From: Planktothrix agardhii NIES-204
GTDB lineage: Bacteria; Cyanobacteriota; Cyanobacteriia; Cyanobacteriales; Microcoleaceae
DNA length: 64,000 nt
Direction: 5' to 3'
Assembly (NCBI GenBank): GCA_003609755.1
Contig: AP017991.1
Location: 3,397,001 to 3,461,000 of the forward strand
The position numbers were made by a program, and so were the translations under genes. Below are positions 2,910 to 54,417 of the stretch, in pieces (the stretch's first letter is position 1; each line of letters opens with the position of its first letter). Below the pieces are notes generated by a model that did no database searches, had not been told where the DNA came from, and saw nothing but the letters and a program-made list of their open reading frames with translations.

Positions 2910-2954
2910 AGTTCGGGTTTTCAGATCAAGTTATTACTAAATTTAGTTCAAAGT

Positions 2955-5405
2955 GTGGATAATTTTTATGGGCTTCACGAAATTCAATCTGATCATCGCG
3001 ATTTTGTTGGGGAGCCAGCCTTTTATTTAAGCCAATTACTCCATCAGGGTCATCCGGTTTTACCAGGTTTTGTAGTTACGGATCATTTATTTTGGGAGTT
3101 TTTAGAAACCATTAATTGGTTAGAACCCCGATTTGTTGATTTCCCTGAATTATCTCTGTATTTTGACATCAATCAACCCCGGCAATTACAAATTATTGCT
3201 CAACATCTTTGTCAACAAATGATGGATAGTCATTTACCTCCGTCATCGAGTCAACCTATTCAAGACAGCATTGACAAATTAAAAACCTCAGCGTTGATTT
3301 TTTATCCGAGTTTGAACACTCCCCATCACTTACAGACATCGGGACTTTTTGAATCGGTGATCGGGTGGGCGGATACTCAAAAAGCTTTAGTGGGATTAAA
3401 ACAAGCCTACTGTGAATTTTTTCGGGCAAAAAGTTTATTATATTGGCAACGATACAAAATTGAATTACAAAATTTACGTCCGGTGGTATTAGTTCAACCT
3501 CTCCAGTCTGCGATCGCTTCCGGTTTTGTGGAAATTCGCCCTAACTGTTGGGAAATAAACTCGACTTGGGGTTTGGAATTTTCCCTGTTATGGGGAGAAA
3601 GCCATCCTGATATTTATTTAATTCAACCCCAAACGGGAATAATTCAACAACAATTAGGCTCTAAAACTATTATCTATAATTTAAAATCTTCTCCTGATCA
3701 ACCGACAAAATATCCAATTCCCCAAAAGCAATTCGGAACTCCAATTTCTCAATTTCCTATTTCTGCCACCTTGATTTCTGAACCACAACAAATATTTTCC
3801 TTAACGCCGGAACAATTACAACAGTTAATTAAGATTATTCAACAAATTATACAGTCTAATCCCGCCATTACTCGATTAGATTGGCGTTTATTTCAACAGC
3901 CCCAAGATCAAGAACCTCAATTCTATCTAGTCGGGGCTAAATGTTCCGAAAACAGTCTTTATTCTAATCCGATAATATCAGATTCTAGCTCGAATCAACA
4001 GCGTTTTAGAGGACTAGCCCTAGCCTCTGGAAAATCTAGGGGAACTGCATATATCCTAACAGAAACAGATCCAATCCCATCACAATTACCTGAGAATACT
4101 GTGTTAGTTGTTACAGCGATTACTTGGGATTATTTACCATTATTAAAACAGATTGTTGCTATTGTCGCTGAACAGGGAGGAATGACCAGTCATGGTGCAA
4201 TTGTGGCGCGAGAAATAGGTATACCTGCTGTTTGTGGGATCGTGAATGCAACAATGAAAATAAAAACGGGTGAATCTATTTTTGTCGATGGTAATTACGG
4301 GGAAGTTTATATTATCAAAAAAGAATTTCCCGTTAATAAAATGTTTTCACAACCGAGTTTTCAGCAACAACAATTGGTCGAAATCTCGTCAAATGTAAAC
4401 TCCACAGCCCTGATGGTTAATATTAGTCAATTGAGTTCTCTACAGCGACTCGATTCTTTACCGATTGATGGAGTGGGTTTATTGCGTTCAGAATTAATGG
4501 CTATTGAAGTATTAGAACGTTCTGAACATCCTACTATAAATTCCTGGATTTCTCAGGAAATAGGGAGTAAATTCTATAATTTTAACGACTGGATTTTATC
4601 AGAAAAACAGCCGATATTTGTTCAAAAAATGGCTGAACAACTTGATCAGATTGTAACAATTTTATCCCCTAGACCTGTTTATTATAGAGCCTTCGATTTA
4701 CGAGAAGTAGAACAATCTGTCTCAGGATTAACTTATTTTTACCCCCACCAGCCCCTTACCAATGGGGGTAGGGGGGATCAGAAGTTATCCTCTCAGGATG
4801 GGATTGATCGAGGTAATTTTCTGGCTTCAGAATCTCCATCTTTAGAACGTCTGGCTTTATTTGATTTAGAACTTAAAGTTTTATTAGAATTGTATAAATC
4901 TGGGGATAAAAATATTCATCTTATTTTACCATTTATTCGCTCTGTCGAGGAATTTTTAATCTATAAACATCGGATTGAAGCATCACAATTAAGTCATTAT
5001 CCTGAGTTTCAAGTGTGGATTATGGCGGAAGTTCCATCAATTCTATTTTTATTACCTGATTACCTGAAAGCAGGAGTTCAAGGGATTTCAATTGGCACCA
5101 ATGATCTGACCCAATTATTATTTGGAATTGATCGAAATCAAATGCAGGTATTCCCAGGTTTATATGAAAGCAATCCGGCTTTTAAAAAAGCGATAAAACA
5201 GTTAATTGAAATGGCAAAAACCGCTAATATTCCTTGTTCAATTTGTGGAGATGCTCCCGCATTATATCCCGAATTAATTGAAGATTTAGTCCGGTGGGGA
5301 ATTACATCAATTTCCGTTAATTTAGATGCCATTGAATCTACCTATATGGCGATCGCCAAATCAGAAAAACAGATTCCCCTAGAAACCTCTCGCCATCATC
5401 TTTAG
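2955..5405 (+). CDS. PEP synthase/PPDK-like protein with degenerate ATP-binding half
   Basis: This 816-aa protein has PEP-synthase architecture: an N-terminal PPDK-type nucleotide domain (GEPAFYLSQLLHQGHPVLPGF), the swivelling phosphohistidine domain with catalytic His near residue 413 (GGMTSHGAIVAREIGIPAVCG, split here as GGMTSHGA and IPAVCG), and a C-terminal PEP/pyruvate barrel (GVGLLRSE, ISIGTNDLTQ, CSICGDAP). The usual N-terminal AVRSS and ED motifs that hold ATP are not recognisable; ALIFYPSL stands in their place. A classical ATP-to-PEP reaction is therefore doubtful. The GTG at 2955 is the chosen start because DNFYGLHEIQSDHRDFVGEPA aligns from there to related N-termini. A repeat-derived insert (HQPLTNGGRGD) lies at residues 596-608. 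Function may be regulatory or use another phosphodonor. Confidence 0.7.
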   Translation: MDNFYGLHEIQSDHRDFVGEPAFYLSQLLHQGHPVLPGFVVTDHLFWEFLETINWLEPRFVDFPELSLYFDINQPRQLQIIAQHLCQQMMDSHLPPSSSQPIQDSIDKLKTSALIFYPSLNTPHHLQTSGLFESVIGWADTQKALVGLKQAYCEFFRAKSLLYWQRYKIELQNLRPVVLVQPLQSAIASGFVEIRPNCWEINSTWGLEFSLLWGESHPDIYLIQPQTGIIQQQLGSKTIIYNLKSSPDQPTKYPIPQKQFGTPISQFPISATLISEPQQIFSLTPEQLQQLIKIIQQIIQSNPAITRLDWRLFQQPQDQEPQFYLVGAKCSENSLYSNPIISDSSSNQQRFRGLALASGKSRGTAYILTETDPIPSQLPENTVLVVTAITWDYLPLLKQIVAIVAEQGGMTSHGAIVAREIGIPAVCGIVNATMKIKTGESIFVDGNYGEVYIIKKEFPVNKMFSQPSFQQQQLVEISSNVNSTALMVNISQLSSLQRLDSLPIDGVGLLRSELMAIEVLERSEHPTINSWISQEIGSKFYNFNDWILSEKQPIFVQKMAEQLDQIVTILSPRPVYYRAFDLREVEQSVSGLTYFYPHQPLTNGGRGDQKLSSQDGIDRGNFLASESPSLERLALFDLELKVLLELYKSGDKNIHLILPFIRSVEEFLIYKHRIEASQLSHYPEFQVWIMAEVPSILFLLPDYLKAGVQGISIGTNDLTQLLFGIDRNQMQVFPGLYESNPAFKKAIKQLIEMAKTANIPCSICGDAPALYPELIEDLVRWGITSISVNLDAIESTYMAIAKSEKQIPLETSRHHL
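4739..4778. repeat. In-frame G/C-rich palindromic repeat inside PEP-synthase-like gene
   Basis: A block of about 40 bases with the arms CCCCCACC and GGTAGGGGGG around CTTACCAATG matches the repeat family found in the vWA and FGE genes near 50 kb. It is read as PHQPLTNGGRGD without breaking the frame and lies in a variable loop of the barrel domain. Confidence 0.65.
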
Positions 5406-37163: not shown

Positions 37164-38191
37164 TTAATTGAGATTAATTACATCTTTGATCAAAATATCT
37201 TGTTCCTCTGCTTCTACATTAAATTCCACACGACTTTGTAAAACGATTTCTTCAATGACGGCTGCACCTTTACCCCGTTCTAAAACCCTATCAAAATGAC
37301 TCATCAGTTCGGGAATATTAATCACTTCTTCTACAGATTCCATATATTTTTTAACAATAGCTTTAATATTATAGTTTCTGTGACTTGAAAAAATCTTCCC
37401 AGGGGTTTCATTACAAAGTCTATACCCCCATCATTTGCGTTGGTTCGACCCGTTTTATATAAAACCAAATATTCCACATTCAGTTCATCGGGTGACCAAC
37501 CCCAATATATTTGTTGGTCTGCATAATATTCCTTCAAAATGGCGTAGCTGACAATTTCAAAAACTCTTGCATCTATATTAGGTTTAAGTAAATCTTTAAT
37601 AAATTTAACCGCTTGTGAAGGATCTTGTTTCTGAATATCGATCATCTGTTGACAATAGATCATAAAGTTATTGAATGCTTGACCACGCGCTGCTATATAA
37701 GCATCAATAATATCTTTAATCGCTTCAGCAATATTTATTTGAGAATTATCAATAGAACATTTTAAGAGATTTTCATTAATCCAATATTTATTGGTTTTAG
37801 AATCTCTGATTATCGGTACATAAGATGATGTTGGAAAGTATTTTTTAAATTCTTCATTTAGTCTACTATTGAGGGCATGATTTTGCAGTTTACTTCCAAA
37901 TGGAAGTTCTCGTTGTCTCTGAAGAAGTCTTGTAAATTTTGCTCCTTCATAATCACTATAACTACCATTAATATGAAACTTATTATTTAGATAGTCGTCG
38001 ATCAAGACATATATAGCATAATGATTTGCAAATCCTGCTCGTGACTTAGAACCACGATTAGCAGCTTTTGTCTTAATATTTAGATATTGTAATAACTCGC
38101 TAGAATCTAAGATTTTACTTCCCTGTTCAGGAAAATATATATTTAAAATCTCAGTAATCTTATCGGTAAATTCATGCTGTACTGTCGGCAT
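37164..38191 (-). pseudogene. Type II restriction endonuclease, frameshifted near its 3' end
   Basis: The gene starts at ATG 38191 (MPTVQHEFTDKITEIL), overlapping the methyltransferase end by 20 bases; the longer frame to 38278 is antisense-like filler. The main frame runs to the catalytic region NDGGIDFVMKPLGRFFQVTET and stops at 37331 after a foreign tail (IILKLLLKNIWNL). From about 37365 down to a stop at 37164 a second frame continues as protein-like sequence (KAIVKKYMESVEEVINIPEL, then EEIVLQSRVEFNVEAEEQD). The nuclease has thus been broken by a frameshift, perhaps with a deletion after FFQVTET, where related enzymes as I recall them have some tens of further residues. Probably inactive. 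Confidence 0.75.
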
Positions 38192-39065
38192 TAAAAAGCT
38201 CCTGTTGAATGAAATCAAAATTTTGAGTGTTTTTATTTCTTCTAGTCTGTTTTTTCTGTGGAGGTAATAGCTTCTCACCTTTATATTCTTGCCATCCCAG
38301 AACTCGCCTCAGACCAATTTTAACATACTCCTCTTGAGATTCTATACTAATAGAATTTCTTCCTAATCGTTTGGCTACCGCACCCGATGTAAATGTACCT
38401 CCAAATGGATCAAGTACAATACCACCCTCCTGACTACTGGCAAGAATTATCCTCTCTAGCAATGCTTCAGGCTTTTGGGAAGGATGGTTTTCGTATTCTT
38501 CCATAAGATATCTAACACGAGGAAAATACCAGACATTCCCCGGTATTTTTTCCGAATTATAGGGACTAGGAACGGATTTTCTATAATCAATTAACTTCCG
38601 TTGCGCGCCTGTTTTTGCTTCTACTTTAATATTATTTGAGTTAAATACATAATTACTCTTATTTTTAACGCAATAAAGTAGGGGTTCATACATTGATCCA
38701 AAGTATTTTTTGGCTTGAACTCCTGAACTATCATAATGCCATATAATGCGGCTCAGAATTACTATTTTATTTCTTAAATAAAGATCAAAATATGGCATCG
38801 CTTGGGTACTTGCCATCACATATAAAGTTCCATTAGGCTTTAATATCCGAATACACTCATCCAGTAATTTATAAGCCCATACTGCATATTCATCATCAGA
38901 CTCCCACTTGTCGTGGAAATTTGAGAATTGTTTCCCGATATTATAGGGAGGATCAATAAAAATTAGATCTACAGATTCCGATGTTATTTCACTCGACAAA
39001 ATAGGTAAAGAATCACCGTGAAATATAATATGTCCCTGGTCTTCATATCGTTCAAACATTACCAT
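38172..39065 (-). CDS. Type II beta-class DNA adenine methyltransferase
   Basis: The 297-aa enzyme has motif IV first (IDPPYNIGKQF) and motif I near the C-terminus (VLDPFGGTFTSGAVAKRLGR), the permuted order of beta-class N6-adenine methyltransferases, with HPSQKPEALLERII between. It transfers methyl from S-adenosylmethionine to adenine in a specific site. The general pattern resembles YhdJ/AvaIII-like enzymes, but I cannot infer the site. Its partner endonuclease overlaps it downstream and is frameshifted, so the methylase may now be an orphan. The first ATG (39065) and a second two codons later are both possible starts. Confidence 0.9.
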   Translation of the reverse strand: MVMFERYEDQGHIIFHGDSLPILSSEITSESVDLIFIDPPYNIGKQFSNFHDKWESDDEYAVWAYKLLDECIRILKPNGTLYVMASTQAMPYFDLYLRNKIVILSRIIWHYDSSGVQAKKYFGSMYEPLLYCVKNKSNYVFNSNNIKVEAKTGAQRKLIDYRKSVPSPYNSEKIPGNVWYFPRVRYLMEEYENHPSQKPEALLERIILASSQEGGIVLDPFGGTFTSGAVAKRLGRNSISIESQEEYVKIGLRRVLGWQEYKGEKLLPPQKKQTRRNKNTQNFDFIQQELFNADSTA

Positions 39066-39183: not shown

Positions 39184-39908
39184 TTAACAACAACTAGAAC
39201 TAGCAGGAGCGCAACAGGAATCATCAGAATTTGTGATGGTAACGTGATAATGCTCTCCCTTGGTTTCTTCCGGTTTACGAATAGCATTTCGTCTACAATC
39301 GAATTCTGGGGCTGATTCTAGGGATATAGTTTCATGGGGTAAAATTCCTAAAATGTCTTGATAATAGGGGCCGTTTATGTTATTATAAATTTGATAGGTT
39401 TTATCACAAACTGCCATCCGTTCCCCCCGATATAAAATATGTCCGTCGTCGTCCATAACCTGTTTCCAAGGCCCTTTATAAATCACGGCTTGGTTTACAT
39501 CTAAACAGGGGCCGTCTTTGCCTTTAAATGCAGTAAGTAGGTGGTCATAATTAAAGTTAAAATCCTAAATGCTGTAAGCCCTTTAGAATAAGGATTTTAG
39601 CTTTCGGTTTGTTAACGTTATTTATGCCCGCCTACTTAACCGTTAGGGAACGAAACTCAATGCCATCAATAACTTGCCAAGGTTCTTCCTGTCGGGCTAA
39701 TATCTCAATACCATAAAATCCGGCCTGTTCAAAACGTTCTAAAAATTCATTTTCCCGAAACGCTCCAGCAATACAACCACTCCAAAGATCGGGATCATTT
39801 AAAATCCTAGGTGTGGGATCTTGATCGCAAACAATATCAGAAATAACTGCCCTTCCGCCCCGTTTTAAGACTCGATAAATTTCTTGAAATAGTTGATCCT
39901 TTCTTAAC
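39184..39908 (-). pseudogene. ArsM-like methyltransferase pseudogene (5' truncated, MITE-interrupted)
   Basis: Two reading pieces on the minus strand belong to one protein. The upstream piece (39908 to about 39639) reads DQLFQEIYRVLKRGGRAV, then PWQVIDGIEFRSLTVK and a stop made by an insertion. The downstream piece (39533 to 39184) reads AFKGKDGPCLDVNQAVIYKG and ends in CCAPASSSCC. Together they match the second half of cyanobacterial SAM-dependent arsenite methyltransferase-like proteins with a Cys-rich tail. The SAM-binding N-terminal half is missing: the frame begins directly at a heptamer array. Removing the TA-flanked insert at 39536-39638 gives continuous T-V-T-A-F-K-G. The frame from 39486 would give a 100-aa fragment, unlikely to be a gene. 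Confidence 0.7.
39534..39638. mobile_element. MITE of about 103 bp with 17-bp inverted ends and TA duplication
   Basis: The ends TAAGTAGGTGGTCATAA and, inverted, TAAGTAGGCGGGCATAA match at 15 of 17 positions. The element is flanked by TA (39534-39535 and 39637-39638). It has no coding capacity. TA duplication suggests mobilisation by an IS630/Tc1-type transposase, which is inference. Confidence 0.8.
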
Positions 39909-45984: not shown

Positions 45985-47205
45985 ATGCTTCCAAATCAAA
46001 CCCTAATTCGGATTTTTATAAGTACGGGAGAAGTCTCTGGCGATTTACAAGGGTCAATGTTAATTGAAGCCTTATTTAGACAAGCTAAAAATCAGAATAT
46101 CCCTATAGAAATTATAGCATTAGGCGGGGAAAAAATGGCCGCAGCCGGAGCAATATTATTAGGAAATACTACAGGAATTGGTTCCGTTGGGCTTTTAGAA
46201 TCTTTACCATATATTATTCCGACTTATTTAATTCAGCAAAAAACTAAACAATATTTAAAAAATCATCCCCCCGATATTGTAATTTTAATTGATTATATGG
46301 GGCCGAATATTGGTATCGGAAATTTTATTAAAAATCACTTCCCCAAATTGCCGATTTTTTATTATATTGCACCGCAAGAATGGGTGTGGTCATTAGGTTC
46401 AAAGAGTACGGAACAAATTATTAAATTAACCGACAAAATTTTAGCGATTTTTCCAGAAGAAGCCCGTTATTTTAAATCAAAAGGTGCCCAGGTAACTTGG
46501 GTGGGTCATCCTTTATTAGACCGGATGAAAACGGCCCCCAGTAGAGAAGAATCTCGGATCAAATTAGGGATGAAACCCGATGAAATTGCGATCGCTTTAC
46601 TTCCGGCTTCCCGATGGCAAGAAATTAAATATTTAATGCCAATATTATTAGAAGCTGCTAAACAAATTCAAGTCAAAATTCCTGGGGTTAAATTTTGGAT
46701 TCCCGTATCTTTACCCGAATATTATAAAACCATAGAAACCGCCATTAAAAACTATCAATTAAATGCGGTTTTAGTTTCAACAAAAGCAGGAAATTGTCAA
46801 ACCTTAGAAGTAATATCCGCCGCTGATTTAGCAATTACCAAATCAGGAACCGTTAACTTAGAAATTGCCTTATTAAATGTTCCCCAAGTTGTGGTTTATC
46901 GAGTCAGTAATTTAACCGCTTGGCTGGTTCGTCGTTTCTTAAATTTTTCAGTTCCGTTTATATCCCCAACTAATTTAGTCCAAATGCAAGCCATCGTGCC
47001 TGAACTTGTTCAAGAAGAAGTGACTCCTGAAAATATTGTGCGAGAGGCAATAGAATTGCTAACTAATCAACCCAAAAGACAGAAAATATTAAATCACTAT
47101 CAACAGATGAAACAGGCATTAGGAGAGGAAGGAGTGTGCGATCGGGCGGCGTTAGAAATTCTCAGTAGTATAGCAGGGAACACCGGATCAGTAAACAGTG
47201 AATGA
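45985..47205 (+). CDS. lpxB: Lipid-A-disaccharide synthase
   Basis: The 406-aa GT19 enzyme has the standard motifs: FISTGEVSGDLQGSMLIEAL (start), IALGGEKMAAAGA, GSVGLLESLPYIIP, VILIDYMGPNIGIG, YYIAPQEWVWSLGS, VGHPLLDRM, LLPASRWQEI, AADLAITKSGTVNLE and VVVYRVSNLTAW. It joins lipid X and UDP-diacylglucosamine into the lipid A disaccharide on the cytoplasmic membrane face. A slightly shorter start would also keep the core. It stands alone beside the DGR locus. Confidence 0.94.
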   Translation: MLPNQTLIRIFISTGEVSGDLQGSMLIEALFRQAKNQNIPIEIIALGGEKMAAAGAILLGNTTGIGSVGLLESLPYIIPTYLIQQKTKQYLKNHPPDIVILIDYMGPNIGIGNFIKNHFPKLPIFYYIAPQEWVWSLGSKSTEQIIKLTDKILAIFPEEARYFKSKGAQVTWVGHPLLDRMKTAPSREESRIKLGMKPDEIAIALLPASRWQEIKYLMPILLEAAKQIQVKIPGVKFWIPVSLPEYYKTIETAIKNYQLNAVLVSTKAGNCQTLEVISAADLAITKSGTVNLEIALLNVPQVVVYRVSNLTAWLVRRFLNFSVPFISPTNLVQMQAIVPELVQEEVTPENIVREAIELLTNQPKRQKILNHYQQMKQALGEEGVCDRAALEILSSIAGNTGSVNSE

Positions 47206-47401
47206 GTTTGCTGGATTTAGAAGTGTCCTAACTGTAATGCGTAGCGCTATAGTGGTCAAGCCACTGTTCAGTTAATTCCTACCAAGCGACTTGACCCAGT
47301 TTGATTTTTGGATGCTGTCGCCACCATCTCAGGCACAGGTCTGGACTCTTGATCATACTCCTCACGAATTCCCATCCGCTAGTTCCGATACTCCAGAGTC
47401 T

Positions 47402-47541
47402 TGCACACTAACCAGGGACGCACCAACAACCCAACAAACCCGAAAGCCGTTGTTGTTGTTGAAGTTGTCGGGGGTGTTCCTGTCACGATTAGCAGAACGG
47501 CAGTTATCAGGATTGTTGATCCACGAACCGCCCCGCAGACA
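47402..47541 (-). repeat. DGR template repeat (TR)
   Basis: The 140-base segment is a near-copy of 49093-49232. Read on the minus strand it has 28 adenines, 26 of them in its central half, and encodes an Asn-rich string (NFNNNNGF). Thirteen of the adenines differ in VR; none of the other 112 bases does. It lies 20 bases beyond the reverse transcriptase stop, so it probably sits on the same transcript. Confidence 0.97.
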
Positions 47542-47561
47542 TTGGGATGCCTGTCCCTTCT

Positions 47562-48620
47562 CTACTCCCTCGTCCAAGCGAGTGAAGCAAATATCTGTTG
47601 GCGCAAATGCCAGGTATCTCCGTGGGCGAGGTGGGCGAACCAACTGTTGAGCGATCGCATCACGTGAGATGAGTAGATTTTACCTTGAATGGTGTCTCGT
47701 TTGAGTCGCCTTAACCGTCTTCTTCCCCGTCTGAGGTTTTCGGTTCTGACCCGTATTGTGTGGGGAAAAACACGAAATCCCATAAAGTTTCCGCCGTGTT
47801 TGGTTTCAAATAGTTGGCTTTTTATCGGGTGAATTTTTAAGCGAAATTGGGCTAAATATTCCTCTAGGGCTATTCGACAGTCGGCTAAAAAGATAGGGTC
47901 ATCTGAGAACAGGGCAAAATCATCGACATAACGAACATATTTGCTAACTTTGAGTTGTTCTTTGATAAAATGATCGAAAGGATTTAGATAAATATTAGCA
48001 AAGGATTGACTGGTTAAATTCCCAATGGGTAAACCTCGTTTTCTTTCTAGGGGTGTTAATAAATTATCTCCAGGGAAATACTCAATCACGGGAATCTGTT
48101 CGTTACTTTGATCAATAATTAGATCAATTAACCAGAGGGTCTCTTTACATTTAATCTTACGGCGAATAACAGTTTTAAGAATTTCGTGATCAATACTGGG
48201 AAAATATTTTTTTAGATCACACAGAAGGACGTAGCGACTGGAACGGGCAAATTGAGTAAACCGTTTTAAAGCTTTATGGGTTCCAAATCCAATCCGGTTG
48301 GCGTAGGAATCGGCAATAAAGGTACGTTCAAATATAGGATAAATGACTGCACAGAGGGCATGGTGAACGACACGATCTCGATAGGGAGCGGCGGAAATCA
48401 TCCGACGTTTAGGTTCAACGATTTCAAAGGTTCTATATTCTCCAGGTGCATAGGTTTTTGTGGTTAATTCTTGTTTGAGTTGAGCCAGTTCTAGTTCTAA
48501 GTTATAGTTAAATTTGAGAACATTGGGACGAAATCTTTTACCCCGTTGGGCTTTTTTGGTGGCGGCGTAGAGGTTTTCAAAGGCAATGATTTGGGGCCAG
48601 AGGTTGCCGTATCGTTTCAT
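47562..48620 (-). CDS. DGR reverse transcriptase
   Basis: The start is the ATG at 48620, which overlaps the Avd stop as ATGA; an in-frame ATG at 48656 lies inside avd. The 352-aa protein has RT motifs in order: FRPNVLKF and [35 protein letters not shown] (catalytic Asp), [17 protein letters not shown] and [14 protein letters not shown] with the catalytic YVDD. IGNLTSQ, in place of the QGxxxSP of group II intron enzymes, is diagnostic for DGR reverse transcriptases. No maturase or endonuclease domain is attached. With Avd it would copy TR RNA into adenine-mutated cDNA that replaces VR. Confidence 0.97.
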
Positions 48621-48967
48621 GGCTTTTTCTTGCGATTTTGTTGCTGTTTTATCCATCCCCCTAAATCCGTTCCAATATCGTTAATTTGTTGTCCAGCAAA
48701 TTCATAGCGGTCTAGGGAGATGAGTTGAAAGTCTAACAACATTCGGGTTTGGTAACGCAGAATATCGAGTTGACTGTTTAACGATTCTAAATAGGAAAGT
48801 TTTTCGGCTGAATATCTTGCCAAAATTAGGGTTTCTAAGATATCATAGAGACAGTTGATCATGCGATCGCCTAACATGAATTTGTGATCCTTGGGCAAAC
48901 GGTTTAGAATGGGGACATACCATTTAATCAAATCGTAGGTTTTTTGGATAATTGGGAGTTCTTCCAT
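48617..48967 (-). CDS. avd: Avd, DGR accessory variability determinant
   Basis: The 116-aa product ([18 protein letters not shown]) is a compact four-helix-bundle protein: [20 protein letters not shown] and [18 protein letters not shown] are the typical helices, and the tail is strongly basic ([10 protein letters not shown]). Avd forms a pentameric barrel that binds the reverse transcriptase and the TR RNA. The ATG at 48967 is preferred over the TTG two codons upstream. It ends in ATGA shared with the reverse transcriptase start. No key part seems lost. Confidence 0.92.
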
Positions 48968-49082
48968 TAACAAAACTTAATGTTTTAGAAAAAAATAAAA
49001 ATCCTCGCTTCGCTCGGACACAAGGGAAGAAGGGATAAAGAAAAAAGAAGGGTAGAGGGCAAAAGAGCTAAAGAAAACAGGG

Positions 49083-49682
49083 CTAAGAAGCCTGCACACT
49101 AACCAGGGACGCACCAACAACCCAACAAACCCGAAAGCCGTAGCTGCTGTCGAAGCCGTCGGGGGCGTACCTGACACGACTAGCAGAACGGCAGTTACCA
49201 GGATTGCTGACCCACGAACCGCCCCGCAGACAATGAGATCTTTCATCACTTAATAAGTTGACTAAATTTTCAACACTATAGATTTGATAACGATTATCAT
49301 TCTTATTCTGCTCATCCCAAACTTCCCCTTGTGTTGGTGCTCCTTCATAGTTTTCATGCCAAGGGTCGGCGCACCATTCCCAGACATTACCATGTAGATC
49401 ATACAACCCAAAGGCGTTGGGAGGGAATTGACCAACAGGGGTGGTTTCCTGTCGATATATTCCCTTGGGTTCCTCTGCATAGGTTTCAGTTCCATCATAA
49501 TTGGCTAAATCACTGGTTAGGGTTTCTCCAAAGTAAAATGGGGTGGTAGTTCCAGCGCGACAAGCATATTCCCATTGGGCTTCTGAGGGTAAACGGTAGG
49601 GGCGTCCGGTGCGTTGCAGCAGTCGGGCACAAAATTCTACCGCATCGTACCAGGAAACGTTTTCTACGGGTCGGTTTGAACC
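49083..49682 (-). CDS. DGR target gene, C-terminal piece: FGE/C-type-lectin fold with VR
   Basis: This 199-codon piece is open from the repeat at 49682 and reads GSNRPVENVSWYDAVEFCAR, RLPSEAQWEYACRAGTTTPF, FGLYDLHGNVWEWCADPW, SHCLRGGSWVSNPGNCRSAS and GFRVC, the conserved second half of the formylglycine-generating-enzyme/sulfatase-modifying fold (a C-type-lectin relative). It has no start and depends on frame continuity with 49664-50920. VR occupies 49093-49232, so the variable residues form the ligand face of the lectin fold. The partial frame from 49406 is only its last 107 codons. Confidence 0.9.
   Translation of the reverse strand, partial: GSNRPVENVSWYDAVEFCARLLQRTGRPYRLPSEAQWEYACRAGTTTPFYFGETLTSDLANYDGTETYAEEPKGIYRQETTPVGQFPPNAFGLYDLHGNVWEWCADPWHENYEGAPTQGEVWDEQNKNDNRYQIYSVENLVNLLSDERSHCLRGGSWVSNPGNCRSASRVRYAPDGFDSSYGFRVCWVVGASLVSVQAS
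49093..49232 (-). repeat. DGR variable repeat (VR)
   Basis: This is the receiving copy, near the 3' end of the target gene. Relative to TR it has 13 changes, all at TR adenines (eleven A to G or T in single hits, two adjacent in one codon), giving the amino-acid changes I to V, N to S, D to G, N to S, D to V, N to Y, T to A, N to G, N to D, N to S, N to S, N to Y. The last 45 or so bases before the target's stop are identical in TR and VR and would hold the IMH. Confidence 0.97.
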
Positions 49683-50920
49683 CCCCCTAGCCCCCCCTTG
49701 AAAGGGGAGGAACTGGAAGTTTCGCTTTCTAAGGGGGGTTGGGGGGAAACTCCTGAAGCCCCCCTTTCAAGGGGGGTTGGGGGGGTATCTTTAAATTCAG
49801 AACAGTCAGGATCAAGATCCCGTTGAATTTTGGGCCAGTTAGCCACGGCTTTCCATTGGGCTTGAGTAATAGGATATTTGGCCATGAAAAAAGGAGGCAC
49901 TGTAACTTGATGTTGGGGGTCTTCGTCATCGTCTCCTTCCCCCTCCGGTGAACCCATGCGGAACGTCCCCCCAGGAATATAAACCATATCTAAGGTGACT
50001 CCATCCCCCAGGTCTTCGGTGAAATATCGGGCTTGTTCGGGTTCCTGTTTGGGTTCCTGTTTGATAATTTCACCCTTTTTGTTAACAGTAACGGTTTCAA
50101 AACTAAAGGTTTTCAGAGGAATGCGACCGAGTACACTACCCGGTTTTGCCAGTTCAACTCCCGCTAAAGTAACGGTTTCCTCCTGACCTAAATATTGTTC
50201 CCAGTCCCGTTGGGCGTTTTCGGTTTCTCGACGAATACCTCGCGCTTCGGCGCCATATCCTTTAGCCGCAATTAATAAGGGTTGATATTTTTTATCGGTT
50301 AAAACCGAGGATAGGGTTTGTGCTAATTCCGACCACTGGACTAACTCGGATTTATTATTTTCTAAATAGGCTTTTTTCAAGGATTTTGCCAACTGTTGCA
50401 CGGCTTCATCCTGTTGGTCAGTATAGGCTAAGGCAGCCCATTGTTGTCGTTCATAAAGACTCCCTAACCAATGGGGAAGTGTAGATTTTAGCTGTTTTTT
50501 TAGGTATTTAATGATAAAATCAGATAATTCTTTTAGTCGTTTTTCTCCTTCTTGGTCTGTGAGTTTGATCAATAATTGATTACGGATATCTGGTTCTATT
50601 TCATAGAGTTCTATTAATTCTTCTTCCACGGGTTGGCAAAAGTCTGATAACAATATATCCGCTACTGCATACCAAGGAAGTTCAAGTTTAGGGTGAAAAG
50701 GGACTAAAAATTTTTTCCAAAGACGATAGAGAAGGTCTGGAGTTAAAGTTAGGGGAAAGGCGGCATGGGACGCTAGGTTTAAATAGGAATTACCGTATTG
50801 TTGGGTAAAGCTATTAATTCGACTGGTGGCGTCGAAGTCCCAGTTAAGAGAACCCCCCCAACCTCCATTGGTAAGGGGGGAGTTAGAGTCTTGGGAAGTT
50901 TCTGGGGAAGAACCCCCCAA
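49664..50920 (-). CDS. DGR target gene, middle piece: helical region and FGE N-terminal half
   Basis: The frame runs for about 418 codons and lacks a natural start: it enters from a G-rich repeat (SSPETSQDSNSPLTNGGWGG) and then reads SLNWDFDATSRINSFTQQYG, a helical region (LLYRLWKKFLVPFHPKLELP) and the first half of the FGE fold (LDMVYIPGGTFRMGSPEGEG, FFMAKYPITQAQWKAVANWP). It ends in another repeat cluster (TPPTPLERGASG, FKGGLGGVQTDP) and a stop. The FGE fold continues in a different frame at 49682. One extra G in the C7 tract at 49681-49687 would join the pieces. Confidence 0.8.
   Translation of the reverse strand: MGGSSPETSQDSNSPLTNGGWGGSLNWDFDATSRINSFTQQYGNSYLNLASHAAFPLTLTPDLLYRLWKKFLVPFHPKLELPWYAVADILLSDFCQPVEEELIELYEIEPDIRNQLLIKLTDQEGEKRLKELSDFIIKYLKKQLKSTLPHWLGSLYERQQWAALAYTDQQDEAVQQLAKSLKKAYLENNKSELVQWSELAQTLSSVLTDKKYQPLLIAAKGYGAEARGIRRETENAQRDWEQYLGQEETVTLAGVELAKPGSVLGRIPLKTFSFETVTVNKKGEIIKQEPKQEPEQARYFTEDLGDGVTLDMVYIPGGTFRMGSPEGEGDDDEDPQHQVTVPPFFMAKYPITQAQWKAVANWPKIQRDLDPDCSEFKDTPPTPLERGASGVSPQPPLESETSSSSPFKGGLGGVQTDP
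49681..49785. repeat. Two adjoining G/C-rich palindromic repeats in the DGR target gene
   Basis: Runs of seven C at 49681-49687 and 49691-49697, six or more G at 49733-49746, and C/G blocks at 49760-49785 build two adjoining inverted-repeat units, about 105 bases in all. They insert a Pro/Ser/Gly-rich peptide between EFK and GSNRPVENVSW of the FGE fold and carry the frameshift. Confidence 0.85.
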
Positions 50921-52044
50921 CCCCCCTTGTTAAGGGGGGAGTTAGAGTTAGTCCCTTTAGTAAGGGGGGAGAAAGAGTCACCCCAGCGTAGCCAGCACAG
51001 CATTTTTTGATATTCTGCGGGTGTGAGGGCAAACATCGGGACTTGTTTGGGGTATATTTTGGCGATATCCTCCGCAGTCGTATCTAACCAACGGTGACGG
51101 GGGAGAGGGTTTAACCAAGCGACACGGGAAACGGTATCGGTGAGGAAGTTGAGAAATTCTACGGTTTCGTCCCAACGGTCAGGGACTGAACGTTGTTTCG
51201 CTGCGCCAGCATCACTAATAATTAAAGCAACGGTATTGTTAGGGGAAAATTGGCTTAAAATTTCGATATCTTCCCCTTTTCGCAGTTGGGGGTCAAGATA
51301 TAAGCTATCGGTTGGGCAGTTATGGAAATAGTAAACCGTCGCGTCTGACCACAGGTTAACCCAATGGCGACAAAGGGGATGAAAGGGCGCCATTGAGCCT
51401 TTTTGGTCGATGAGTAATAGGACTTTTGGAGGTATTTCTAGGGTCTGGGTGGGGGCGAAAACAGGTTTAATGAAAAAACCATCTTTGGTAATTTGTTCAA
51501 CGGTAGCGGGAATATCTATTTCTTTGAAAAAGGTTTTTGGACGTTGAGGTTTAAAGGTTTCCCATCCTTTCCGCAGTTGTTGACGACTTACGGGGAAATA
51601 ATACCTTTCTTGCCAATTTACAGAAATAGCAGTTCCCACTTGCAGGTTTTGGTTTTCAATTGTTAGGTATTCTTCTAATTCTCCATCGCCCCCATTTCCA
51701 AGGGGGGTTGGGGGGGTCTCAACAGAATTTTCTGGAGTAGTGACTAATTGTTGTTTACCTCCATCGCCCCCATTTCCAAGGGGGGTTGGGGGGGTCTTAT
51801 CGGGGTTTTTTGAACTTAAAATTAACTCTTGCCAACAGTCTTCAAACCGATGTTGTTCTTCTGGAGATTTAACCCAAACGGCTTGACAAAGGTATTTTAT
51901 TTTATCAAAATTAGTCGGATCAAAACCATCATCAATAGACTGGGTTAAGGCTTCCACAGCAAAATTATACTGGTCAATTCCTAAGGGAAAATCAGCTTTT
52001 TTGAGTAGGTTAAATAATTTTCGCAGTGGTAAAGCGGTTGTCAT
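50779..52044 (-). CDS. DGR target gene, N-terminal piece: vWA-like / SAV_2336-like region
   Basis: The ATG at 52044 begins MTTALPLRKLFNLLKKADFP. The N-terminal part resembles SAV_2336-type N-terminal regions (FDPTNFDKIKYLCQAVWVKS). A vWA-like core follows: VLLLIDQKGSMAPFH, where the MIDAS DxSxS reads DxKxS, and VALIISDAGA. From about residue 345 the frame runs into a repeat cluster (SPLTKGTNSNSPLNKGGWGV) and continues for 60 junk codons to a stop at 50779. One extra G at 50913-50918 would carry it into the next piece (SLNWDFDATS). Two 39-base repeat copies lie in frame near residue 84-122. Confidence 0.8.
   Translation of the reverse strand: MTTALPLRKLFNLLKKADFPLGIDQYNFAVEALTQSIDDGFDPTNFDKIKYLCQAVWVKSPEEQHRFEDCWQELILSSKNPDKTPPTPLGNGGDGGKQQLVTTPENSVETPPTPLGNGGDGELEEYLTIENQNLQVGTAISVNWQERYYFPVSRQQLRKGWETFKPQRPKTFFKEIDIPATVEQITKDGFFIKPVFAPTQTLEIPPKVLLLIDQKGSMAPFHPLCRHWVNLWSDATVYYFHNCPTDSLYLDPQLRKGEDIEILSQFSPNNTVALIISDAGAAKQRSVPDRWDETVEFLNFLTDTVSRVAWLNPLPRHRWLDTTAEDIAKIYPKQVPMFALTPAEYQKMLCWLRWGDSFSPLTKGTNSNSPLNKGGWGVLPQKLPKTLTPPLPMEVGGVLLTGTSTPPVELIALPNNTVIPI
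50853..50970. repeat. Three adjoining G/C-rich palindromic repeats in the DGR target gene
   Basis: Three units with AACCCCCC and TTAAGGGGGGAG-type arms lie at about 50853-50882, 50911-50942 and 50951-50970. The C6 tract at 50913-50918 (G6 on the coding strand) is where the reading frame is lost; the sister unit at 50853 has C7. Confidence 0.85.
51681..51797. repeat. Two exact 39-base copies of the G/C-rich palindrome
   Basis: 51681-51719 and 51759-51797 are identical (they begin CTCCATCGCCCCCATTTCCA). Both are in frame and give the same peptide ETPPTPLGNGGDG/KTPPTPLGNGGDG. Exact identity suggests a recent duplication or gene conversion. Confidence 0.9.
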
Positions 52045-52144: not shown

Positions 52145-53134
52145 TTAAATATCCTGATAACTATTAGAACTCTGATGATCTTTACATAACGTACTTGGTA
52201 GAGGAATTCCTGGTTTTTCGAGCATAGCCTTAATTTCCCCCGTAGGATAGTCATAAAGGGCTTTAAACCAATCAATTAATTCACTGGTACTAACTTGTTT
52301 AGGAAGTTCATCTTCTTCCATTGCTGCTCGCAGTTCCAGAAATTTATCTAAAGCATTTTTAACTATGATAGCCGGAGGATTCTTAAACCGACTATTAATA
52401 ATTTCGGTTAACCGTATGCTATCAGGAAATTCCACATAATGATATAAACACCGTCGCAAAAAGGCACTGGGAAGTTCCTGTTCTCGGTTAGAGGTAATAA
52501 TAATAATCGGTGGTGCAGCTTTATTAGCACGTTCCCAACGGGGTTCGCCATTGTCTTCTCGAATTTCTTTAACTAGGAATTTTTGTTGGTCAATAGCTAA
52601 TAATAAATCATTGGGTAAATCTTTATCCGCTTTATCAATTTCATCAATTAAAACAATAGTCCGACAGTCCTGTTCTCGAAAGGCATATCCTAATGGCCCC
52701 CAGTTAATAAAATTTTCTGGGGAACAGGGGTCAATACTTTTATCTTGTACCTCTTCTTTAGCTAATTGCGCGGCTTGAAGTCTCCCGACATAATCATAAG
52801 TATAAAAGCCATCCTGAGCTTTACTGGTAGATTGAATATTCCAGAGTCTATATTTCCATAGAATATCAGGATAACGTTTATTTAATTGATAAGCAACCGC
52901 CGCCGCTAACTGACTTTTACCACATCCGGGCTCTCCTTCCAAGAGTAACGGACGGTTAAGACGAATGGCTAAAGTAACCGCTTCTACTAACCCATCACTG
53001 GGATAATAGGGATAGATTTCTTGGTCAACTAAATCACTCCATTCTCCGCCTTGAGGGGGTTGAAATTCTCCAGTTTCATCTTTTTTATATTGAATTTTGG
53101 TGTTAGGGTTTATCGGTGTGGTTAGGTGTTCCAT
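52145..53134 (-). CDS. MoxR-type AAA+ ATPase
   Basis: The 329-aa ATPase has Walker A (LLLEGEPGCGKSQLAAAVAY), Walker B (TIVLIDEIDKADKDLPNDLL), sensor 1 (IIIITSNREQELPSAFLRR) and an arginine finger candidate in LRRCLYHYVEFPD. MoxR proteins act as chaperones with vWA partners, and a vWA-like gene is next. Start at 53134 overlaps the previous gene's stop by 13 bases, which suggests coupled translation. No target-binding extra domain is attached. It probably uses ATP to remodel or gate the vWA-FGE protein. Confidence 0.9.
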   Translation of the reverse strand: MEHLTTPINPNTKIQYKKDETGEFQPPQGGEWSDLVDQEIYPYYPSDGLVEAVTLAIRLNRPLLLEGEPGCGKSQLAAAVAYQLNKRYPDILWKYRLWNIQSTSKAQDGFYTYDYVGRLQAAQLAKEEVQDKSIDPCSPENFINWGPLGYAFREQDCRTIVLIDEIDKADKDLPNDLLLAIDQQKFLVKEIREDNGEPRWERANKAAPPIIIITSNREQELPSAFLRRCLYHYVEFPDSIRLTEIINSRFKNPPAIIVKNALDKFLELRAAMEEDELPKQVSTSELIDWFKALYDYPTGEIKAMLEKPGIPLPSTLCKDHQSSNSYQDI

Positions 53135-54417
53135 TGTCGAATTAAGTCCTCATATTGGCAGTTAAAAATTCTCGATATCTCCTTCAAGAGCTTAACAGTA
53201 TCAAGATCTTTCCCAGAAATTATATACTTTCCGAGTAAATTTTGAACTATGACCTGGGTTTCCGCCACCGAGTTTACAATCTTCTGATTAAATTTTGAAG
53301 ATGATTTTGCATTTAGATTGAAAATTAAATCTTCTAAATCATTTGAAGTAAATGGTGTTAAGGGCATTTCTTTAATATAAGGTTGCAAAATCTTTCTATC
53401 TTGCCATTGTGTTTGCCAATCATGTCCTGATCCTTGAGCAACTAGAAACAGCAAAATCTTTCCCTTTTGTTGACCCCTATTTTTTTCTAAAACTCTTTGC
53501 CAACAGTTTTTAATAAAATATTCTAGTTTCTCCAAATCATGCTGATCAATTTTAAAATTAAAAATTAAAAACAAATAACTATTATTCAATGTTCTACTTA
53601 AAGAATCCATTGAGTAGGTTATATTAAATTCTGTTACCATTTCCTCTTTACTTTTTTTATCATGAGTTATTTTTCTTGGCACAATTTTTAACTTATCTCG
53701 GTCTTCAATTTCATGTTGAATTCTTCGCAATACCCAGAATTTTTGACAAGGACATTTATGTACTAATAAAAAAGCTTGAGTATGATCCTCAACATCATTT
53801 TCTTTAAAGATTCTAATTTGAGAACTGTGATTAAAAGCATTTAATTCTGAAACTAGAGCCTGGACTTTAAGTATATTAATCTCAGGAGAATCACTCTTTA
53901 TTTTTTCAAAAAACAATTGATAATTTTCCGCTATACCCAAAGCATTCCAGAAAGCCGCAAAAATATCTTCTTCAATTTCTTTTTCAATCTGTAAAAATTT
54001 AATCCAATTAGGAATAGTAATATTATGAAATCTAACTTTTTTTTGTTTTGAAAGAATTAAGTTATCGATTATTTCTCCCAAAGATATTCTTGGCAGACCA
54101 GGATTGATAAAGTCTTCATTTACATATTGTATAACAATATCTTGACAAGGTTCTCCTTTCCTATTTCCTGATTCTTTCTTAACAAAAACTTCATTGTAAT
54201 TTATCCAGTCTAAAAAATCTTGTATAGGAATATCAACATCATCCTTCAGTCCGTCCTTTTTAAACTCCTTAGCAAAAGCGTTCCTAAATTGATGTTCACT
54301 CGCAAGCATTAAGGCTGTCTCACACTTATTTCGAGCCCACCCCTTCTCCTTAATTTTCTGTTTATGCGCGTTCTTAATCATTGACTTGCCAGCTTCAGAA
54401 GCTTTCCCTAGAACCAT
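53122..54417 (-). CDS. Unrecognised 431-aa protein, first gene of the DGR operon
   Basis: I do not recognise the family. The first 40 residues are basic (HKQKIKEKGWARNKCETAL); Met13 and Met38 are alternative starts. The first third is helical with EFKKDGLKDDVDIPIQDFLDW; the middle has a possible nucleotide-binding-like sheet without Walker motifs (TQAFLLVHKCPCQKFWVLRR, YLFLIFNFKIDQHDLEKLEY, GKILLFLVAQGSGHDWQTQW). The arrangement of hydrophobic strands resembles an inactive STAND-like NTPase region, but this is weak. Its place ahead of MoxR fits a sensor, adaptor or effector of the same system. Base composition is lower in G+C than neighbours. Confidence 0.75.
   Translation of the reverse strand: MVLGKASEAGKSMIKNAHKQKIKEKGWARNKCETALMLASEHQFRNAFAKEFKKDGLKDDVDIPIQDFLDWINYNEVFVKKESGNRKGEPCQDIVIQYVNEDFINPGLPRISLGEIIDNLILSKQKKVRFHNITIPNWIKFLQIEKEIEEDIFAAFWNALGIAENYQLFFEKIKSDSPEINILKVQALVSELNAFNHSSQIRIFKENDVEDHTQAFLLVHKCPCQKFWVLRRIQHEIEDRDKLKIVPRKITHDKKSKEEMVTEFNITYSMDSLSRTLNNSYLFLIFNFKIDQHDLEKLEYFIKNCWQRVLEKNRGQQKGKILLFLVAQGSGHDWQTQWQDRKILQPYIKEMPLTPFTSNDLEDLIFNLNAKSSSKFNQKIVNSVAETQVIVQNLLGKYIISGKDLDTVKLLKEISRIFNCQYEDLIRQWNT

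Follow-up and report, generated by a model that had tools for sequence, protein, structure and literature searches.

Does the chromosome of Planktothrix agardhii NIES-204 carry a diversity-generating retroelement (DGR) that has recently rewritten its target gene, and does that gene still encode a working protein? The question arises from a 64,000-nucleotide stretch (contig AP017991.1 of assembly GCA_003609755.1, positions 3,397,001 to 3,461,000; hereafter the window, whose positions are used below), for which an earlier reading of the sequence, the original prediction, had proposed a complete, functional-type DGR. We are highly confident that the element is a chromosomal DGR of the cyanobacterial cellular clade, working by the mechanism proposed below. 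Read from its own sequence and from sister genomes, it appears to have been recently active. The gene order on the minus strand is a third component, a MoxR-like ATPase, the target in pieces running from a vWA to an FGE part, the variable repeat (VR), Avd, the reverse transcriptase (RT), the template repeat (TR) and a structured RNA. Beyond the RNA, on the opposite strand, lies a gene that, from reading its protein, is presumably lpxB.

TR (47402 to 47541, minus strand) begins 20 bases past the RT stop codon, and VR (49093 to 49232, minus strand) lies at the 3' end of the target. Both are 140 bases long, and comparing them gave 13 differences, every one at an adenine of TR. TR holds 28 adenines and 112 other bases, and none of the latter differs (0/112); if 13 mismatches were placed at random, the probability that all would fall on the 28 adenines of 140 is about 5e-11. 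The coordinates and counts of the original prediction were exact. From TR to VR, 10 adenines became G and 3 became T, with no change to C. Twelve codons are altered. Asparagine codons had been predicted at nearly all variable sites, which holds for 8 of the 12 (AAC or AAT in TR) and fails for the remaining ATC, GAT, GAC and ACC. A search of TR against the rest of the genome, as the original prediction had suggested, found no further VR and no third copy of the repeat, the next best match being 21 bases long (E 0.027).

The RT (47562 to 48656, minus strand; RVT_1, E 1.8e-22) bears both of the predicted motifs, IGNLTSQ and YVDD. Across 82 aligned RTs, GNLTSQ was present in 77 and RYVDDF in 80, and the relatives suggest that translation may start at the methionine of codon 13, at 48620. 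The best solved relative was chain 8ub7_A (E 3.2e-46), listed only as 'Reverse transcriptase', which we take to be the enzyme of the Bordetella phage BPP-1. At 143 conserved columns the window RT shows 3 departures, equal to the median of the 81 others, and decay of the RT was therefore rejected. Avd (48617 to 48973, minus strand) sits between VR and RT, and the frames of Avd and RT are both open. The Avd product matched NF033474 DivGenRetAVD at 144 bits against a cut-off of 80 (E 1.6e-42), as well as bAvd PF22296 (E 9.5e-21).

To place this arrangement among its relatives, we scanned species genomes with an alignment of five RTs as the query and obtained 273 relatives; the best 80 loci of these 273 were analysed. 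The window RT is 63-73% identical (best segment) to the 80, which by record title comprise 6 Thiotrichaceae-type bacteria, 1 member of Blastocatellia and otherwise cyanobacteria. Avd was found within 900 bases upstream of RT in 76 of the 80 loci. A TR-VR pair was accepted only if it was at least 100 bases long with at least half of its differences at adenines, and the cleanest pair was taken; 57 of the 80 loci gave such a pair, with TR starting a median of 31 bases past the RT match. In these best pairs 853 of 976 differences lie at TR adenines, which make up 1810 of 7338 positions. This figure is biased upwards by the selection of pairs and is a description, not a test, because it depends on those same acceptance rules. 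Eleven of the 57 best pairs differ only at adenines, and the window pair is among the clean ones. A congener, Planktothrix PCC 11201, bears the same DGR. One scan of viral contigs returned only RTs of 28-31% identity in 2 loci, and no close phage copy.

Comparison with sister genomes gave a between-genome view of VR. The genome G059, labelled as the same species, agrees with the window over kilobases of flanking sequence; the lpxB neighbour is 97% identical, and the FGE/VR end sits in the same place. No TR was found in this locus or in three other fetched Planktothrix loci without RT, so that their VRs were compared with the TR of the window. In the G059 VR, 15 of 28 adenines and 4 of 111 other positions are changed (Fisher 2e-9; the alignment has two gap columns), and in the 428 bases before VR, G059 and the window differ at 0 of 126 adenines and 4 of 302 other positions. 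For the three further VRs the counts at adenines and other positions were 13/28 and 8/112, 18/28 and 10/112, and 16/27 and 11/110. None of the four comparisons showed an excess of adenine differences upstream of VR. By these comparisons VR is a mutational hot spot whose most variable positions are the adenines of TR. The original prediction had expected variation at TR adenines only: adenines were indeed changed about 6 to 15 times more often, and non-adenine differences also exist in all four RT-less VRs, as expected of later ordinary mutation.

The same comparison suggests how the diversifying genes were lost. Homology to G059 stops at window position 47195 and resumes at 48791, indicating a 1.6-kb deletion that removes TR, the RNA, RT and the 3' half of Avd, of which model positions 1-55 of 104 remain. 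Neither an RT at E 1e-20 nor the RNA was found in the G059 genome, and its VR appears to have been frozen after the loss of the engine. Between the near-identical flanks the MoxR and vWA genes are divergent (window 52145-54417, G059 locus L064 7452-10514). The G059 MoxR and vWA proteins are 48% and 33% identical to those of the window, and the FGE/VR end is 92-94% identical at the DNA level, from which we infer that the upstream arm was exchanged in G059 and the diversified tip kept. Another Planktothrix genome, G007, has no DGR-type RT (best RT match E 1.9e-11) despite an orthologous target. Taken together, the adenine-only differences, Avd, the DGR-type RT, the shared gene order and the between-genome divergence of VR at TR adenines bear out the call of a functional-type DGR.

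Behind TR, folding of the corresponding sequence in relatives yielded the same recurring helices. We built a covariance model, R1, from 39 loci, leaving the window out and including PCC 11201 (L112). Of the 42 pairs in its alignment, 29 vary on both sides. Standard pairing was kept in 96.2% of alignment cells, against 84.2% in shuffles and at most 48.2% with the strands slid, a figure favoured by the structure having come from the same alignment. Cells in which both partners had changed are the stronger measure: they number 242, whereas shuffled alignments average 61 and slid ones never exceed 46. In the window, R1 matched 47229 to 47409 (minus strand; 125.9 bits, E 1.3e-31), overlapping the last 8 bases of TR, and this was the sole match in the 64 kb at E up to 1.

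R1 also matched 37 of 41 held-out relative loci, among which are near-duplicates such as L155 and L156. By coordinates these matches lie at most 1.4 kb from RT, sometimes before it or on the opposite strand, and no match was found at L106, L117, L136 and L161. A first search of genomes for RTs had given a set of 13 loci with RT, and R1 was present in all 13, three of which are records of the relative set and one of which (L024) is the model member L112. It was found in none of 8 FGE loci without RT. Among 10 Planktothrix genomes, R1 was present in 3 of 3 with RT and 0 of 7 without. Of 59 genomes, 14 matched the RT at E 1e-40 or better; 12 of these 14 have the RNA, and in the two that lack it (G020 and G025) the RT matches are fragments. 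The RNA also occurred in 6 of the 45 genomes without such an RT (G016, G018, G021, G026, G032 and G058), none of which has an RT at E 1e-20.

Several loci carry the RNA without the enzyme. L180 (G018, contig C155) and L186 (G286, contig C1 near 937311) each combine an FGE target with TR and the RNA. Their TR-VR differences favour adenines (13/16 and 12/14), and no RT or Avd was found in the fetched stretch of either. No DGR-type RT was found in the G018 genome. In G286 such an RT lies at another place on the contig, near 4964919, and perhaps serves L186 in trans. At L179, L181, L182 and L187, the RNA comes no more than about 140 bases after a match to an FGE-type gene, and no separate TR, Avd or RT was found, a layout that VR-TR recombination would produce. 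L183 and L185 have the RNA with none of the query proteins nearby. Separately, a Fischerella DGR locus (L093) was noticed to carry a HEARO RNA (RF02033, 154 bits) at 2934-3150, some 3 kb ahead of its RT.

We compared this RNA with known families. The RNA of BPP-1, between TR and brt, belongs to another class, Rfam RF03022 Phage_DGR (104.7 bits at 2750-2882). An Rfam scan of the window stretch did not report RF03022, and R1, run with filters off on the first 8,000 bases of BPP-1, gave a best score of 4.5 bits, not at the BPP-1 RNA. The closest Rfam family is RF02921 RT-14, which aligns full length to the window RNA at the same place with 32.6 bits, under the gathering cut-off of 48.1. RT-14 reached its cut-off in 0 of 11 DGR loci and gave a match below it in 1 of 5 (L104, 33.9 bits). 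In 292 cyanobacterial genomes, it matched 3 places at E 0.01 or better, 1 of them over the cut-off, and the window genome is not among the 3. Because R1 matches all 3 of these places (111-147 bits), RT-14 is probably a narrow model of the TR-following RNA, missing most members that R1 finds.

In BPP-1, the spacer behind TR folds, recruits RT-Avd and primes cDNA synthesis, according to the accessible text of PMC12875486, and by analogy the window RNA is probably its counterpart. A structured flank has been suggested before: PMC12691664, in the portions available, already describes the TR flanks as predicted parts of the complex. The same portions report, for a Nostoc culture, strong expression of TR-RNA and adenine hypermutation at a low level. 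In a literature of which coverage was partial, no conserved structure of a cyanobacterial DGR RNA and no relevant mention of RT-14, RF02921 or RF03022 was found in print, and the RNA is the newest part of our findings. We consider it fairly likely that the TR-following RNA is a second class of DGR guide RNA, belonging to cellular DGRs of cyanobacteria, giant sulphur bacteria and others and unlike the phage class of Rfam. It would give RT-14 a function. Where RT has been lost, it could persist in TR-VR-RNA or VR-RNA remnants, and an RT elsewhere on the contig may serve the G286 remnant in trans.

The target gene tells a more complicated story. VR lies at the 3' end of the C-terminal part of an FGE-sulfatase/C-type-lectin (CLec) domain; a search with its G059 counterpart returned 25 FGE-like chains, TvpA 2y3c (E 2.3e-13) being one of them. 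The G007 orthologue (914 aa) is encoded in a single frame, as is that of another Planktothrix genome (G001, contig C11; 977 aa), and the G007 protein aligns to the window as three consecutive segments, all on the minus strand and each in its own frame. Residues 1-369 correspond to piece 1 (50779 to 52044), the vWA part, where VWA_CoxE scored 17.8 bits, under the Pfam cut-off of 26.4. Residues 360-717 correspond to piece 2 (49667 to 50929), with the middle and the N-terminal FGE part (FGE-sulfatase, E 5.5e-15), and residues 723-914 to piece 3 (49086 to 49766), with the C-terminal FGE/CLec part and VR (FGE-sulfatase, E 1.3e-13). The sequence as it stands therefore does not encode a full-length sensor, though its VR was recently rewritten. 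The original prediction had called the DGR complete: this stood for the diversifying engine and not for the target, whose split over three frames it had missed.

Both breaks lie within C/G-rich palindromic repeat arrays, the first at 50852 to 50978 and the second at 49683 to 49789. Allowing up to 1 mismatch, the genome holds 74 sites of this palindrome family, against 1 for a reversed control, and a third such repeat in coding sequence was seen at 51681-51798. In the first-search set, 9 of the 13 loci have open frames of 841-1001 aa ending in the FGE part, and of these only L027 also matches the vWA part of the window. The remaining four are shorter, with frames of 460 aa (L026), 574 aa (L030) and 212 aa (L036), and in L034 the FGE part is in two frames. 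The break between vWA and FGE may be tolerated, because the two are separate genes in G059 and L030; the second break interrupts the FGE domain itself and would be less readily tolerated or explained away. At this second site, G059 and G001 bear different repeat arrays, which are in frame. In the rest of the window, 35 open reading frames (ORFs) were matched from G059 at 80% or more; 2 of them look split, and 1 of 35 in the reverse direction. The two places in the window are 37182-38272 and 39187-39901; both are without a C/G run, and one has runs of six T and six A.

Upstream of the target, side by side with its vWA piece, lie a MoxR-like AAA+ ATPase gene (52145 to 53134, minus strand) and the gene of a third component (53122 to 54417, minus strand). 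The former matched AAA_5 (E 2.7e-10) and, far under the cut-off of that model, MadB-like (E 7.9e-21). Judged by profile scores, the third component is at most iSTAND-like: its iSTAND match was 10.7 bits in the window (cut-off 24), 36.7 in G007 and 92 in G059, and its G001 homologue had no iSTAND match in the profile search. The G007 and G001 homologues are 29% and 55% identical to it. The vWA match, under the Pfam cut-off in the window, G007 and G001, is over it in the G059 counterpart. We consider the target to be the vWA-linked arm of a MoxR-vWA-(iSTAND-like) ternary system, in which it probably senses invaders. In PADLOC, the best match of RT was a general RT model, followed by DRT and unknown-group RT models, and the MoxR gene gave weak matches to mad8 and IetA. 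No assignment to a defence system is claimed on the strength of these matches.

Some observations weigh against a recently active DGR with a standard layout and an intact RNA and target. The PCC 11201 pair is less clean, with 12 of 16 TR-VR differences at adenines. The R1 score of the window RNA, 125.9 bits, falls short of the 166-167 reached in two congeners, of which G003 is part of the model. Of the 42 pairs, 37 are standard in the window RNA and 5 non-standard, compared with 1 non-standard pair in each congener and 0 to 6 in the 39 model sequences. There is no perfect hairpin of at least 5 bp just after the window VR, where BPP-1 has one; a perfect stem of this length follows VR in 1 of 58 loci, the window included and itself without one, against a shuffled expectation of 3.4. 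This hairpin is a BPP-1 feature that we do not count as a defining mark of the cyanobacterial clade. The three frames of the target lower the claim of a working target and leave that of a DGR unaffected. If TR and VR were instead an ordinary duplication, its differences would have fallen on adenines by chance or through an adenine-specific mutation unrelated to RT. We found no point in its support and regard it as vanishingly improbable, given the chance of about 5e-11 for all 13, the lack of any adenine excess upstream of VR in four comparisons, and Avd, RT and RNA genes that adjoin the repeats.

The DGR reading thus stands, and what has to be weighed is the nature of the breaks. They could be sequencing or assembly errors at C/G homopolymers in what is one intact gene, an explanation against which we lean only slightly. 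Both breaks do lie in arrays with C or G runs, and the arrays at the second site in G059 and G001 are in frame, but two other places in the window look split without any C/G run. Alternatively, and compatibly with a DGR, the element may be on its way out: the palindromic repeats would have expanded or slipped and so truly disrupted the target, and the engine would survive for a while with little to edit, while sister genomes (G059, G007) would lose the engine first and keep a target with a frozen VR. The orthologues in single frames in G007 and G001, the G059 locus with half of Avd left and no RT, TR or RNA, and the retention of a DGR-type RT in only 3 of 10 Planktothrix genomes speak for it. 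So does the G003 locus on contig C19 (L061 6785-7903), where the orthologous vWA-FGE gene is interrupted by a putative transposase gene. Yet TR and VR agree at all 112 non-adenine positions and RT is well conserved, so any decay would be young, and since vWA and FGE are separate in G059 and L030, the first break need not be fatal. We hold this quite possible, while leaning against it. It is unlikely that slippage at the C/G tracts serves to switch the diversified sensor between on and off states among the cells of a population. The arrays at the break sites do differ between genomes, in frame in some and out of frame in the window genome (G000); the same palindrome, however, occurs at 74 sites and is therefore a dispersed repeat, not a device for the target gene, and there is no evidence of switching.

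For the DGR itself, we propose the following mechanism. TR would be transcribed jointly with the structured RNA behind it, and this RNA would recruit RT and Avd. The two proteins would copy TR into cDNA, with random bases incorporated opposite adenines, and the cDNA would then replace VR at the 3' end of the target gene. About a dozen residues would thereby be re-drawn on the ligand-binding face of the C-type-lectin/FGE domain. The DGR would be one more case of bacteria rewriting a probable immune sensor. Two genomes of the same species, with and without the engine, offer a before and after of diversification and freezing, and the split target is a warning that adenine-only differences between TR and VR are no proof of a working sensor. 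With the covariance model of the TR-following RNA, cellular DGRs and their remnants gain a second marker, one that does not depend on proteins.

How does this element compare with known systems? Literature on DGRs in Planktothrix, as far as the accessible texts go, consists of nothing beyond a Nodularia genome paper that uses each term once. The window DGR belongs to the cyanobacterial cellular clade described by Vallota-Eastman et al. (2020; PMC7517822). The available text of that paper attributes to cyanobacterial DGRs (RT clade 5) targets with an N-terminal signalling and a C-terminal CLec domain, and names VWA-CoxE among the target domains. The order of target with VR, Avd, RT and TR and the CLec/FGE target are alike in both; the window departs from the published description in its three-frame target, and a search of its genome found no second target at a distance.

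MoxR-vWA ternary conflict systems with FGS/CLec domains diversified by DGRs are described in the accessible parts of Kaur et al. (2020; PMC7159879) and Dore et al. (2024; PMC10907252). The window shares with them, so far as those parts describe them, a MoxR ATPase, a vWA-FGE target and a third gene adjoining a DGR. Unlike theirs, its third component would be iSTAND-like, not VMAP, with a score below the Pfam cut-off. The DGR of BPP-1 (AY029185) likewise has an Avd-type gene, RT, TR, VR and, in the available text of PMC12875486, a structured RNA behind TR. The two differ in layout: the TR of BPP-1 lies between bbp7 (avd) and brt, with mtd as the target, whereas the TR of the window follows RT.

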